Positions 5,562 through 19,478 of a DNA stretch of 21,471 bases are shown piece by piece. The notes under the pieces were generated by a model that worked only from the letters and a program-made list of their open reading frames with translations, did no database searches and had not been told where the DNA came from. The stretch spans positions 1 to 21,471 of the IMG/VR virus record IMGVR_UViG_3300020427_000010; one strand, given 5' to 3'. The position numbers and the translations under genes were made by a program. Position 1 is the first letter of the stretch. Each line of letters begins with the position of its first letter. The DNA is from a virus.

Positions 5562-7567
5562 TATTCTAAACTTTGTCCTATTTTTAAAGATTGAAGTAGT
5601 GGTAACTTAACAGAAGCCGGAGGCATCGGTGGACCTGACGGACCGGTTCCGGTTGGATGTGTATGTTCTACCACAATATCTATTAGTTCATTTAATATTT
5701 CTGCCAATGATGCAATTAATCCTTTAACTTTTACTTTACCCGTAGAACTTACTGTTACCTCACCTAATAATCCTTGCATAGAAGCTGCGCCTGATGCCTC
5801 TAATTTAAGTGTCGATAATAAACTACTCATTTGAGCATTTCCTGCTATACTAGAAAAATCTATATTTCCCAATAATGCGGTTCCTTTAATACCTGTAGTT
5901 CCCAAATTAGAATTTAATTCTATATCTCCAATAGGTTTTACTGCTACGGAAGCTCCCGCTCCGGCAAGGCCTAAATTCATTTCAACTGCACCAGACAAAA
6001 GATTGTCTGTACATTCCATTCCAATTTTACCTAGAGTAGCGGTTGTCTTTTTAGCATAACCCAAAGTCATTGATGGTAATACCCCAAATATAGATTCATT
6101 TACTGAATCAGTAATATTAAGAGTCATCCCCCCACCGGATTGTAATCCTAGAGAACCTTGAGCATTTAAACTATATGCTCCAGAGTGTACAGAATATTTA
6201 CCACCTACTTTCTTTTTATCATCTCCTATTGTACTAGTATCAGCTGATTTATTTTCAATTATTACATTGTTAGCACTTAACGTAAGTGACTCTGATGCAC
6301 TCATTGTCATCTTGGAGGATTCTAAATTAATTGCTCCCTTTGGATTATTAACATTAAATCGCCCTCTTTTTATAGCAACAGAATAATCACCATCAATCTT
6401 GTCTACTCTATTACCAAGAATATAATTTTCTTGTGAACCATCAACAGTCGTATAGTCACCCGCTTCAATGTGTGTATATTTTGCTCCTAAAATAATATTA
6501 TAATAATTGTTTACAATCTTATCAACTTTAATACCTACTGGATGAATTTCAGTAAAAGTACCTGTTCGATGATACCAATGTAATCTTTCCTCATTGGGAG
6601 TATCATCCATTTCAATAACATGACCACTTTCAGTTTGGTGTACATGATTGTAAGGATAGACAGCTGCCCAGGGAACTTTAGGTTCAGACCAAGCTTTACC
6701 ATCTGATGTAGGAATTTCCATTTGACCGACTTTTCGGTTTTGCATTTTTTCAAAAACAATTCCTGAAATTCTTGGATCACTCTTATCAGTATTTCCACGA
6801 ATTCCCCTCGCTAATCTATTTGTAGTTGGTTCTTTTAAATAATCTAAATTCCTAGTTGTTGATATAGTTGAATCTGCAAGCCCTGTATCAGGGTATGTTG
6901 ATCTAATTGGTTGTTCTACAACTTTAACAGTAAATGGTGGAGTTGGTGATTTCGTTCCAGTTCGACCAATCAAAGACCTTACTTCGGTTTTTTCTGTAAG
7001 GGTAGTATTAGCCGAAATTTTAACTGTCTGTACATCTTCAGTAGGATCAGGATTAGCATTATGAATAATACTTGCAGGTTCTCTGGGCACCATATCAGAA
7101 GCGGGATTATATTGTAAAGTTCTTGGTCCTATTTCATCTTTAAACTCTGGATGCCCCACATCAGCTCCGGGCTCTATATCACCTCTATCTAATCTTGGAT
7201 CGAGAAACCCCTGACCACCTACTGCTGTACCATCATTATTAACTCCCTTTGCATCTAATTCTGGAATACCACCAAGTGTTCCAAAGAACATTGGCTCTTG
7301 TCCTGCCTCACCATCACGATAAAATCCAACAACCCATGTTCCTTCTACTGGACCTAATGGAGATGTACCTACTCCTGTCTGACTTGCTGAAGTAATAGGC
7401 GCAACTGGATATGCCCACGGAAGGGAAATAGTAGGCATGTCATTCTTGTTTTCTGAATGCCACCCCAAAACTCTAATCTTACATCTTCCAAGATAAAGAG
7501 GATCATGGCGGTCTTCGACAACTCCTTGCCACCAAACAAATCCCTCTTTTCCCATAAAGTATGCCAT
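5561..7567 (-). CDS. 5: Baseplate central spike protein, gp5/VgrG-like, without lysozyme domain
   Basis: Residues 1-100 form the OB-fold typical of gp5/VgrG spikes (G-x-V-E-D-R-x-D-P-L-x-L-G-R-C-K-I-R-V, then G-T-W-V-V-G-F-Y-R-D-G and a P-x-x-F-G-T-L-G-G-I-P end). Around residues 300-345 there is an H-Q-T-E-S-G-H-V-I-E-M-D-D-T-P motif followed by H-R-T-G-T-F-T-E-I, the entry to the triple-stranded beta-helix. The body then shows short Ile/Leu/Val-Asn-Gly beta repeats. The C-terminus (from about residue 635) carries H-T-H-P-T-G-T-G-P-S-G-P-P, a metal-binding type spike end. T4 gp5 (575 aa) has a lysozyme domain between OB-fold and helix; none is visible here. The ATG is preceded by AGGA at 8 nt. 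In the family the trimer plugs the gp27 hub. Confidence 0.88.
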   Translation of the reverse strand: MAYFMGKEGFVWWQGVVEDRHDPLYLGRCKIRVLGWHSENKNDMPTISLPWAYPVAPITSASQTGVGTSPLGPVEGTWVVGFYRDGEAGQEPMFFGTLGGIPELDAKGVNNDGTAVGGQGFLDPRLDRGDIEPGADVGHPEFKDEIGPRTLQYNPASDMVPREPASIIHNANPDPTEDVQTVKISANTTLTEKTEVRSLIGRTGTKSPTPPFTVKVVEQPIRSTYPDTGLADSTISTTRNLDYLKEPTTNRLARGIRGNTDKSDPRISGIVFEKMQNRKVGQMEIPTSDGKAWSEPKVPWAAVYPYNHVHQTESGHVIEMDDTPNEERLHWYHRTGTFTEIHPVGIKVDKIVNNYYNIILGAKYTHIEAGDYTTVDGSQENYILGNRVDKIDGDYSVAIKRGRFNVNNPKGAINLESSKMTMSASESLTLSANNVIIENKSADTSTIGDDKKKVGGKYSVHSGAYSLNAQGSLGLQSGGGMTLNITDSVNESIFGVLPSMTLGYAKKTTATLGKIGMECTDNLLSGAVEMNLGLAGAGASVAVKPIGDIELNSNLGTTGIKGTALLGNIDFSSIAGNAQMSSLLSTLKLEASGAASMQGLLGEVTVSSTGKVKVKGLIASLAEILNELIDIVVEHTHPTGTGPSGPPMPPASVKLPLLQSLKIGQSLE

Positions 7568-17628: not shown

Positions 17629-18141
17629 TCAATTATATTCTTCATATTTAATATTTTGTTGTTCTTCAAGTAGTTTTCTATTTTTCATGTGTTCTGCTTC
17701 AATTTCCTCTTTACTTCCTCCGTGATATCCTACTGCATAACCATTTTCACACATCCATTTGTTTACATTGGTCCAACCTGAAAACTCTTGTCCATCTGCG
17801 GTGCAGTTGATCCAGAGTTCTCCAAGAATTCTTCCGAATTTACCTCTACTGTCTTTCTCTGGACACCTGACTTGAATTTCAATGTCATCCCTGTCTGACA
17901 TGATTGCCCAATGTAACCATGATTTGAGGGCAGCTGATGAGAGTTTCCCATAAAACTTTTCTTCCAAATCTCTAGTTCTGGATTCTGGTGTATCGATTCC
18001 AAGCAAGCGTATCCTTCCACAGTACCTAACATCGAACCCAAGATCAATAATTGCATCAATAGTATCTCCATCTACAACTTTCTCTATTGCTGTTATGTGG
18101 TAAATAAATTCACAAGGGTTTTCATTTTTATATTCAGCCAT
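17629..18141 (-). CDS. Staphylococcal-nuclease-like (thermonuclease family) endonuclease
   Basis: 170 residues with the SNase fold motifs: V-V-D-G-D-T (D24, D26), R-I-R-L-L-G-I-D-T-P-E-S (R45, D50, E53) and G-K-F-G-R-I-L-G-E-L (R104), then W-M-C-E-N-G-Y-A-V. The residues equivalent to S. aureus D21, R35, D40, E43 and R87 are all present, so a calcium-dependent phosphodiesterase activity is likely. There is no signal peptide, so it should act in the cytoplasm, perhaps on host DNA or RNA. It overlaps the upstream gene by 8 nt; GGAG lies 10 nt before the ATG. Such genes occur in marine T4-like phages. Confidence 0.87.
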   Translation of the reverse strand: MAEYKNENPCEFIYHITAIEKVVDGDTIDAIIDLGFDVRYCGRIRLLGIDTPESRTRDLEEKFYGKLSSAALKSWLHWAIMSDRDDIEIQVRCPEKDSRGKFGRILGELWINCTADGQEFSGWTNVNKWMCENGYAVGYHGGSKEEIEAEHMKNRKLLEEQQNIKYEEYN

Positions 18142-18409
18142 TATATGTATTCTCCCATTCTAATTTCCATGTATCTTCCACAGGGGTTACTTTTAATCGA
18201 CCCAAATCTCTTGTTTCAGGATAAAGATATGTAAAACCTTGTCCACCATAATTAGGGTTTACTTCATGGGGTTCACCCCTTTCTATTCTTCCGGCCAAGT
18301 CTGTTAAATCTCTTGTCTCTATATATTTTTCATAATCTATTCTTTCTCCTGGTATTAATTCATATCTTGGTACTTCTGTTCTGTATCCACCTTTATACTC
18401 CATTGACAT
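18134..18409 (-). CDS. Unknown protein directly after the tmRNA (91 aa)
   Basis: 91 residues starting MSMEYKGGYRTEVPRYELIP, mostly polar and acidic with many Tyr, Arg, Glu and Gly; no domain recognised and no membrane segment. I chose the ATG at 18409 because AGGAG lies 7 nt before it. A longer frame from a GTG at 18466 would run through the structured 3' end of the tmRNA coding piece and has no ribosome binding site. Its 3' end overlaps the nuclease gene by 8 nt, so the two are probably co-translated. Confidence 0.65.
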   Translation of the reverse strand: MSMEYKGGYRTEVPRYELIPGERIDYEKYIETRDLTDLAGRIERGEPHEVNPNYGGQGFTYLYPETRDLGRLKVTPVEDTWKLEWENTYNG

Positions 18410-18425
18410 AAATTGACTCCTATTG

Positions 18426-18618
18426 AAAGTTAGCTGACCGTGCTTCTGTTCCCAAGTGACGGCCACAACTCGGCTATAGCCTATGCAGCGATTGCATAAG
18501 CATATGCGGGTGTATAATCGTTGTTATTTGCGATTACTTTAATGGACCGTTACGGTGGACGCCCTACCGGATACCTCTCTACATGACTTGACAATCAATC
18601 GAATTCTACTACAGCCCC
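18426..18618 (-). ncRNA. tmRNA coding piece
   Basis: Starts at GGGGCTG (18618) and contains ATTCGA (18604-18599). TGTCAA (18593-18588) can pair with TTGACA (18783-18778) of the acceptor piece as a short P2 helix. A candidate H-type pseudoknot pairs CGGT (18569-18566) with ACCG (18556-18553) and GGGC (18564-18561) with GTCC (18547-18544). It ends 12 nt before the resume codon, close to the spacing in E. coli tmRNA. TAATC precedes the resume GCA, like the TAGTC of E. coli. After the tag stop, GAGTT/AACTT and GGCCGT/ACGGTC (18471-18427) form a stem that probably marks the 3' end. Confidence 0.82.
18481..18531 (-). other. tmRNA proteolysis tag frame
   Basis: From the resume codon GCA (18531-18529) the frame reads ANNNDYTPAYAYAIAA and then TAG (18483-18481). 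With the alanine carried by the charged tmRNA, the added tag would be 17 residues. Known tags end in a small hydrophobic group such as A-L-A-A; the Y-A-I-A-A end here resembles it and could be read by ClpXP. Confidence 0.85.
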
Positions 18619-18627
18619 ATCAATGAA

Positions 18628-18717
18628 CTACAGATAAAAAATAACAATAATATATGCAGCTGCTACTATAATTCCTAATACTAACATTGCGAGTACAAAC
18701 ATTTTATTGTTACTCAT
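18628..18717 (-). CDS. 29-residue membrane peptide inside the tmRNA spacer
   Basis: A 29-codon ORF starting M-S-N-N-K-M-F-V-L-A-M and running as one hydrophobic stretch rich in Val, Ile, Ala and Leu to its TAG. AAAGGA lies 6 nt before the ATG, overlapping the last A of the tmRNA CCA. The ORF fills 90 of the 110 nt between the acceptor piece (ends 18729) and the coding piece (starts 18618). A polar N-terminus followed by one TM helix is the plan of many small phage membrane peptides. Being short it could be chance, but the ribosome binding site and snug fit argue for a real gene. Confidence 0.5.
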   Translation of the reverse strand: MSNNKMFVLAMLVLGIIVAAAYIIVIFYL

Positions 18718-18728
18718 CTATAATCCTT

Positions 18729-18790
18729 TGGTGGAGCTGATGGGAATCGCACCCATGTCTTAACTGCTATCCATATATGTCAACAGTATC
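18729..18790 (-). ncRNA. tmRNA acceptor piece
   Basis: Contains a 5-bp T stem ATGGG (18756-18752) and CCCAT (18744-18740) around the 7-nt loop TGCGATT, then the acceptor strand CAGCTCC and ACCA. The second T-loop base is G rather than the usual T. The T arm and CCA were what first looked like a tRNA, but no D or anticodon arm exists upstream; the partner acceptor strand is 110 nt downstream. The 5' end is uncertain, placed just before the possible P2 strand TTGACA (18783-18778). Confidence 0.8.
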
Positions 18791-18802
18791 AATAATATTT
18801 AT

Positions 18803-18819
18803 GTCACAAAAGATGTGAC
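18803..18819 (-). other. Perfect hairpin at the end of the exonuclease gene, just upstream of the tmRNA
   Basis: GTCACA-TCTTT-TGTGAC on the minus strand forms a 6-bp stem with a 5-nt loop that spans the exonuclease stop codon. No U-run follows, so it is not a standard terminator. The next bases read CATAAATA (18803-18796), one mismatch from the late promoter octamer. It may mark a processing site or insulate the tmRNA transcript. Confidence 0.45.
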
Positions 18820-19478
18820 TCATAATATAATTTTTTAGCTTCCCAAATTTTATCAACCCAATCATCTCTTTTCTCTACAAACAATTGGGGGTGTTCTTCA
18901 TCAACAGCAATAATTATTACTACTTGTGAAACTGGTATCTTTGTAAGTTCTTCGTATGCAACCCCATAGAATGCACCTTGAGCAAAATAACTCTCACACC
19001 ATTCCTTCTTCTTAATTCTGTTACTAGTCTTGTAATCAATTACAGATAATACACCATCGAACTCGGCAATTAAATCCGTTCTACCTGCGACACCAAAATG
19101 ATCTGAGTACAATGCTAACTCAACTCCGTGAACGTTATCGATTCTTTCAAGGAACGGTTCAATGTTCTTGAATAGTTCAACAATGTTCGGCGTTTGTCCG
19201 TCAAGATATCCGTCTTCGTTTTTGATATAGGATTCACAGACAGAATGTAGGCTTGTTCCTCTGCGGGAAGCCTTACCGGAGATTTTGTTCGCTTCGGTTT
19301 CTCCAACACGCTTTCTCCACTCCTGTATAGAAGCTTTGGAGAATTCGCTAAGTATAGTTGTGATTGACGGGTATAGTCCACCTTCAGGGGTAACATAATG
19401 TCTCTTTCCATTGTGATTTTCAGTTCTCATTCCAAAAGACAATTCAGGTCTATTGGCGAGATGTATAAATTTTTTCAT
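18804..19478 (-). CDS. PD-(D/E)XK family exonuclease (RecB/MGME1-like)
   Basis: 224 residues with the motifs of single-domain RecB-family nucleases: R-G-T-S-L-H (R73-H78), E120, G-R-T-D-L (R133, D135), V-I-D-Y-K-T-S (D148, K150) and Q-G-A-F-Y (Q167, Y171). This order (H, D, D-x-K, Q-x-x-x-Y) is that of MGME1- and Cas4-type exonucleases, so a metal-dependent DNA exonuclease is expected, probably in phage recombination or host DNA breakdown. Cas4-type iron-sulphur cysteines are absent. The start overlaps the FmdB-like gene by 4 nt. The 3' end meets the hairpin before the tmRNA. Confidence 0.85.
   Translation of the reverse strand: MKKFIHLANRPELSFGMRTENHNGKRHYVTPEGGLYPSITTILSEFSKASIQEWRKRVGETEANKISGKASRRGTSLHSVCESYIKNEDGYLDGQTPNIVELFKNIEPFLERIDNVHGVELALYSDHFGVAGRTDLIAEFDGVLSVIDYKTSNRIKKKEWCESYFAQGAFYGVAYEELTKIPVSQVVIIIAVDEEHPQLFVEKRDDWVDKIWEAKKLYYESHLL

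Follow-up and report, generated by a model that had tools for sequence, protein, structure and literature searches.

A reading frame for a predicted membrane peptide fills the spacer of a permuted two-piece tmRNA gene in a marine T4-like phage

The stretch of DNA analysed here, which we refer to as the window, comprises 21,471 nucleotides (nt; positions 1 to 21,471 of IMG/VR virus record IMGVR_UViG_3300020427_000010) and carries a gene for a circularly permuted two-piece transfer-messenger RNA (tmRNA). The intervening spacer of this gene, a segment expected to be removed upon processing of the precursor, holds an open reading frame (ORF) for a 29-residue peptide with a single predicted transmembrane (TM) segment, and the spacers of relatives are likewise filled, by different peptides. 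Our preferred explanation, to which we assign a probability of roughly three in four, is that the spacer serves as a cargo slot for a micro-mRNA that rides in the tmRNA precursor.

Identification of the permuted tmRNA gene

The assignment of the locus to the phage-encoded, circularly permuted two-piece tmRNAs is strongly supported. In an Rfam search of the window, the model RF04321 (tmRNA_permuted; gathering cut-off 47 bits) matched with 107.1 bits and an E-value of 2e-20 over its full length, with all modelled pairs being standard, and the match is thus more than a product of chance. RF01849 (alpha_tmRNA; cut-off 50 bits) also matched, with 57.1 bits, a much weaker score than the 106.7 bits obtained for phage Melnitz. 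An earlier note on this DNA, made from the letters alone, had proposed such a gene, and the parts that it named are all present on the minus strand. The T arm and the encoded CCA precede the acceptor strand GGGGCTG, the two acceptor strands pair over 7 bp with a G3-U70 wobble, and ATTCGA lies 3' of the acceptor 5' strand, followed by an open resume frame of 16 residues. The encoded tag, ANNNDYTPAYAYAIAA, has an Ala resume codon and a hydrophobic C-terminus, and related tags occur in relatives. The note placed the gene correctly at 18426-18790, but its end at 18426 was slightly too long, as the alpha_tmRNA model stops at 18435, and the spacer ORF had been overlooked. ARAGORN, which the note had suggested alongside the covariance models, did not pick up the tmRNA gene in the window.

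Syntenic relatives were located via the neighbouring exonuclease gene, and their acceptor strands were read without requiring pairing. These strands co-vary (GGGGTTG/CAACTCC, GGGGGTG/CACCTCC and GGGGATG/CATCTCC), so that the changes are compensated rather than broken, which was the distinction that the note had named as a test. The fact that the acceptor strands change together argues against a pseudogene. In a subclade formed by L208, L619 and L626, the encoded tag has 20 residues (ANFFAANNSDYSPARVALAA) and may contain a second resume site internally (GCTAATAAT).

Reading frames in the spacers of the window and its relatives

The 110-nt spacer of the window starts with AAGGA and an ATG directly after the CCA, and the resulting 29-codon frame (MSNNKMFVLAMLVLGIIVAAAYIIVIFYL) ends 9 nt before the acceptor. 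The frequency of such ORFs in the tmRNA clade of the window was determined by a complete pattern scan that yielded 98 stretches representing 73 distinct loci; this census is free of the bias to TTGAT ends of two gapped pattern scans, which were also unspecific. An ORF was present in 57 of the 73 loci, a hairpin of 25-42 nt without ORF in 12, and a longer spacer without ORF by the criteria used in one, the remaining three being cut or unresolved. Among all phage spacers of 85-400 nt, a full-length ORF, defined by a start close to the CCA and a stop near the spacer end, was found in 29 of 60 sequence clusters, as opposed to 0.99 on average and at most 5 in 500 dinucleotide shuffles. No comparable ORF was found in about fifty alphaproteobacterial spacers, which were sampled partly by length and mostly have 7-74 nt; scan artefacts and one tandem duplication account for some of the longest values. 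One long bacterial spacer (L541, 1600-1950, 309 nt) was considered as a gene and rejected, as it consists of tandem copies of one segment.

The short spacer peptides have 26-34 residues and a single predicted TM segment. Measured over 17 residues, 21 of their 23 families are strongly hydrophobic and clearly exceed shuffled codons in this respect. Other slots, forming a second group, contain soluble, mostly basic peptides of 50-62 residues, many of which end in KDW-KDLW(D/E). Searches of Pfam and PHROGs gave no family match for the spacer peptides, and tblastn against cultured phages returned nothing useful. The permuted genes described in a tmRNA database paper include one tRNA-Ala gene and one repetitive element as spacer contents, and no protein gene (PMC11915505); our searches of the open-access literature brought up no account of a protein gene in a tmRNA spacer. 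A viral permuted tmRNA-like locus (L173, about 6918-6996) has a spacer that starts with an apparent tRNA gene (ATGCTCCTTAGCTCAGTTGGTAGAG...).

Purifying selection acts on the spacer reading frame in three families. In MEKx, the largest with 40 distinct nucleotide sequences, the ratio of nonsynonymous to synonymous changes (dN/dS) was 0.37, or 0.49 without the stem codons, and third-position changes were in excess, the other frames giving values of 0.88 and 1.47. The MDKV and MDxx families had dN/dS values of 0.21 and 0.31, respectively. Insertions and deletions are confined to the leader and spare the frame, and all 29 distinct matches to the MEKK N-terminus lie inside tmRNA spacers. The peptide of the window has one diverged homologue (L652), which is identical at 14 of 29 positions and has a similar leader.

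A conserved stem at the spacer ends

In spacers of at least 40 nt, base j pairs with base -(j+5) in one conserved register. The fraction of paired cells in this register amounted to 88.5% in ORF clusters, against 43-54% with the register slid, and to 85% in the others, the slid values spanning 35-54% overall. AT, TA, GC and CG pairs all occur at single stem positions, giving several compensatory pair types. TGAT stands ahead of G1 in 27 of 29 ORF clusters and in 41 of 47 others, some of which were fetched by patterns requiring TGAT. In the window the spacer stem comprises 14 bp, in which both the start and stop codons and most of the Shine-Dalgarno-like sequence are included, and the hairpin formed by acceptor and spacer has a predicted energy of -45.8 kcal/mol with a z-score of -6.8, into which the acceptor stem enters. 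Most of the ORF therefore lies in the loop of a hairpin found generally in permuted tmRNA precursors. Two features by which type I toxins are recognised, a short hydrophobic single-TM peptide and a structurally masked ribosome-binding site, are both predicted for the window. The 42-nt spacer of L602 is an MEKK ORF cut by an internal deletion with both stem arms kept, which is what a required stem and a dispensable ORF would predict.

Exchange of spacer content between phages

Near-identical tmRNA bodies differ in the content of their spacers alone. Apart from the spacer, L208 and L666/L655 show no difference between T arm and tag, the former having a 103-nt spacer with an ORF and the latter a 25-nt hairpin; L013 and L018 form a second, less close pair of this kind. 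On an exonuclease tree with 109 rows the spacer type changes 30 times, the minimum being 15, and the closest relative of the window (L002) has a different spacer ORF. Since the assemblies are metagenomic, any one pair might in theory be a chimaera, and more weight rests on the recurrence of such changes across the tree.

Proposed mode of action

According to our preferred explanation, tRNA-processing enzymes would cut the precursor at the CCA and at G1 to yield the two-piece tmRNA, which, judged by its family membership, would work with host SmpB in trans-translation. The cargo slot, tightly bounded by the CCA and the RNase P site, would here carry a micro-gene for a 29-residue single-TM peptide that may act at the membrane. 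The stem at the spacer ends, stacked on the acceptor stem, hides the ribosome-binding site and the start codon. For this reason, the peptide would most likely be translated either during transcription, while the 3' arm is still missing, or from the spacer fragment after its excision and the trimming of its 3' end. Synthesis of the peptide would thereby be tied to transcription and processing of the tmRNA. The structure of the tmRNA, the selection on the ORF, the masking stem and the exchange of cargo are shown by the sequence comparisons; translation of the ORF, its timing, the partnership with host SmpB and an action at the membrane are inferred. In a wider form, for which we see even odds, the spacers of phage permuted tmRNAs would be dedicated, exchangeable expression slots for micro-genes, in which processing of the tRNA type frees or uncovers the concealed mRNA for a membrane peptide, and ribosome rescue would be coupled to peptide production during infection. 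Among permuted tmRNAs, this would be the first case known to us of a protein gene in the spacer that is cut out, and an RNA piece regarded as waste would become a messenger. It would also illustrate how compactly phages stack functions, provide over 20 short membrane peptides that have so far escaped study, and make the idea of tRNA-type processing as a switch for translation amenable to testing.

Several observations weigh against this explanation. Twelve relatives in the clade census have no ORF, all ORF-bearing cases are metagenomic, and the cultured phages that we examined have no closed spacer ORF. Once the precursor is folded, the stem would hinder its translation, and the z-score of the fold is partly that of the acceptor stem. 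The peptide family of the window has a mere handful of members (L001, L035 and L652), so that the case for its being coding depends on the other families. Lastly, AT-rich DNA favours hydrophobic codons, although the shuffles still fall below the observed values.

Alternative explanations

The locus could be a plain phage two-piece tmRNA with a chance open frame, the spacer being kept only for its fold. Conservation of the end-stem with and without an ORF would agree with this, as would the short ORF-less spacers and the absence of an ORF from numerous further phage spacers of 80-120 nt. Chance, however, would give about one full-length ORF among the 60 clusters rather than 29, and it accounts neither for dN/dS values of 0.2-0.4 in three families nor for a hydrophobicity far beyond that of shuffled codons, nor for the tightness with which leader and stop bound the ORF in many unrelated families. 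We therefore consider this explanation improbable. Still far less credible is the view that the tmRNA is a decayed, non-functional copy picked up along with other host DNA, such as the remains of an attachment site. Integration commonly targets tmRNA genes, and prophages contain fragments of them (PMC9004378), but here all parts are intact, the acceptor changes are compensated, and dozens of related contigs of T4-like phages have conserved tags.

A narrower version of the cargo-slot explanation, compatible with it, holds that the spacer peptide is type I toxin-like or lysis-related and that its mRNA is silent until processed, as in hok, with the tmRNA gene as the processing scaffold. In type I toxin mRNAs, silencing of the nascent transcript by structure until processing is established (PMC11228461), and the single-TM peptides of 26-34 residues and the pairing of the 5' and 3' ends over the ribosome-binding site fit such a scheme. 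Yet no antisense antitoxin was seen, no search for one having been made, the peptides match no family, and the longer soluble peptides in other slots do not fit. This version is thus possible but rather unlikely.

Genome setting

The contig of 21.5 kb derives from an uncultured marine T4-like phage, and gp32, a gp33-type coactivator gene and baseplate genes surround the tmRNA locus, in line with the phage origin claimed in the earlier note. The parts of the locus and its neighbours are listed in the Table.

Table. Features of the permuted tmRNA locus in the window
Feature	Position	Strand	Remarks
Permuted two-piece tmRNA gene (precursor)	18435..18841	-	Extent of RF01849 alpha_tmRNA model, 57.1 bits
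tmRNA_permuted core	18481-18790	-	RF04321, 107.1 bits
T arm ATGGG-TGCGATT-CCCAT	18756-18740	-	Rfam model and sequence reading
Acceptor 3' strand CAGCTCC	18739-18733	-	Followed by ACCA, 18732-18729
Intervening spacer (IVS)	18619..18728	-	110 nt between CCA and acceptor 5' strand; removal on processing expected
AAGGA, Shine-Dalgarno-like	18728-18724	-	Directly after CCA
Nested 29-codon ORF MSNNKMFVLAMLVLGIIVAAAYIIVIFYL	18717-18628	-	Predicted single TM; homologue in L652 with same architecture
Spacer stem, 5' arm	18713..18726	-	Holds most of Shine-Dalgarno-like sequence and start codon
Spacer stem, 3' arm	18625..18638	-	Holds stop codon
Acceptor 5' strand GGGGCTG	18618-18612	-	RNase P cleavage expected before 18618
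Tag frame ANNNDYTPAYAYAIAA	18481..18531	-	Resume codon GCA at 18531, 16 codons, stop TAG 18483-18481
Upstream PD-(D/E)XK exonuclease	18804..19478	-	Used as syntenic anchor
Downstream small gene	18134..18409	-	No assigned function

Other phage tmRNAs, origin and partner protein

Two-piece tmRNAs have already been described in phage Melnitz and in 53 phage genomes, the majority of them marine (Buchholz 2022, PMC9004378), and the tmRNA of the window itself therefore adds no new kind. No match to it was found by blastn against cultured phages. The earlier note had also suggested that the gene was taken from the host lineage. This view finds no support: the T loop is TGCGATT and not of the alphaproteobacterial type GGCGGTA/GGCAGTA, and the phage-type T arm was found in 0 of 372 alphaproteobacterial genomes, which leaves a recent capture from an alphaproteobacterial host unsupported. 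A search of 7 related phage records turned up no SmpB, and the ribosome rescue that the tmRNA of the window probably performs would therefore depend on the SmpB of the host.

Permuted tmRNAs were also observed in cultured phages. Pelagibacter phage HTVC008M (L576 about 17901-18250; NC_020484, about 145185 on) has one with a 49-nt spacer and the tag ANFNEYALAA, which lacks an annotation in its RefSeq record. The 142-nt spacer of Melnitz (L577 45973-46390, MZ577097) has a GGAG and an ATG frame that reads without a stop across the spacer and a further 13 codons of the tmRNA body (MFKWLSKTRLVV...); if this frame were translated, processing would remove its stop codon. It was rejected as a cultured example of a closed spacer ORF, because the frame continues into the tmRNA body. 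Unannotated permuted tmRNAs are further present in cultured Pseudomonas, Xanthomonas, Stenotrophomonas and Acinetobacter phages (L699, L700, L701, L702, L703, L704, L705), with scores of 103 to 124 bits and one of 77, four being above the beta_tmRNA cut-off as well. The six longer spacers of this set (107-126 nt) contain no ATG ORF and share the end-stem and TGAT; spacers of this length belong to beta-type permuted tmRNAs of the Pseudomonas, Xanthomonas and Stenotrophomonas phages.

Comparison with known systems

The locus shares with the permuted tmRNAs of RF04321 and RF01849 the gene order, the acceptor pairing with G3-U70, the T arm, a tag ending in hydrophobic -AA and the 3' terminal motif. 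It differs from them in its T loop, and in that its 110-nt spacer is a predicted protein-coding insert, whereas theirs are non-coding and mostly of 7-74 nt. Melnitz and other marine phages (PMC9004378) are similar in being T4-like and in having the tmRNA between the exonuclease and the gp33 late-transcription coactivator. The spacers of Mosig and HTVC008M, however, have 44-49 nt and no ORF, and in Melnitz the frame is not closed inside the spacer. The Rfam search of the window gave no match to a glutamine riboswitch. Like the mRNAs of hok-type and other type I toxins (PMC11228461, PMC8309996), the spacer encodes a short single-TM peptide and has paired ends that are predicted to hide the ribosome-binding site; in the window, in contrast, the mRNA would be embedded in a tmRNA precursor, and no antitoxin RNA was seen, no search aimed at one having been made. 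Other tmRNA genes with inserts, namely group I introns with homing endonucleases and the tRNA-Ala gene in one permuted spacer (PMC11915505), also have a second gene inside the tmRNA gene that is removed from the mature RNA, but the insert of the window is a predicted protein micro-gene that fills the spacer, belongs to one of many unrelated families, and is of a kind exchanged between phages.
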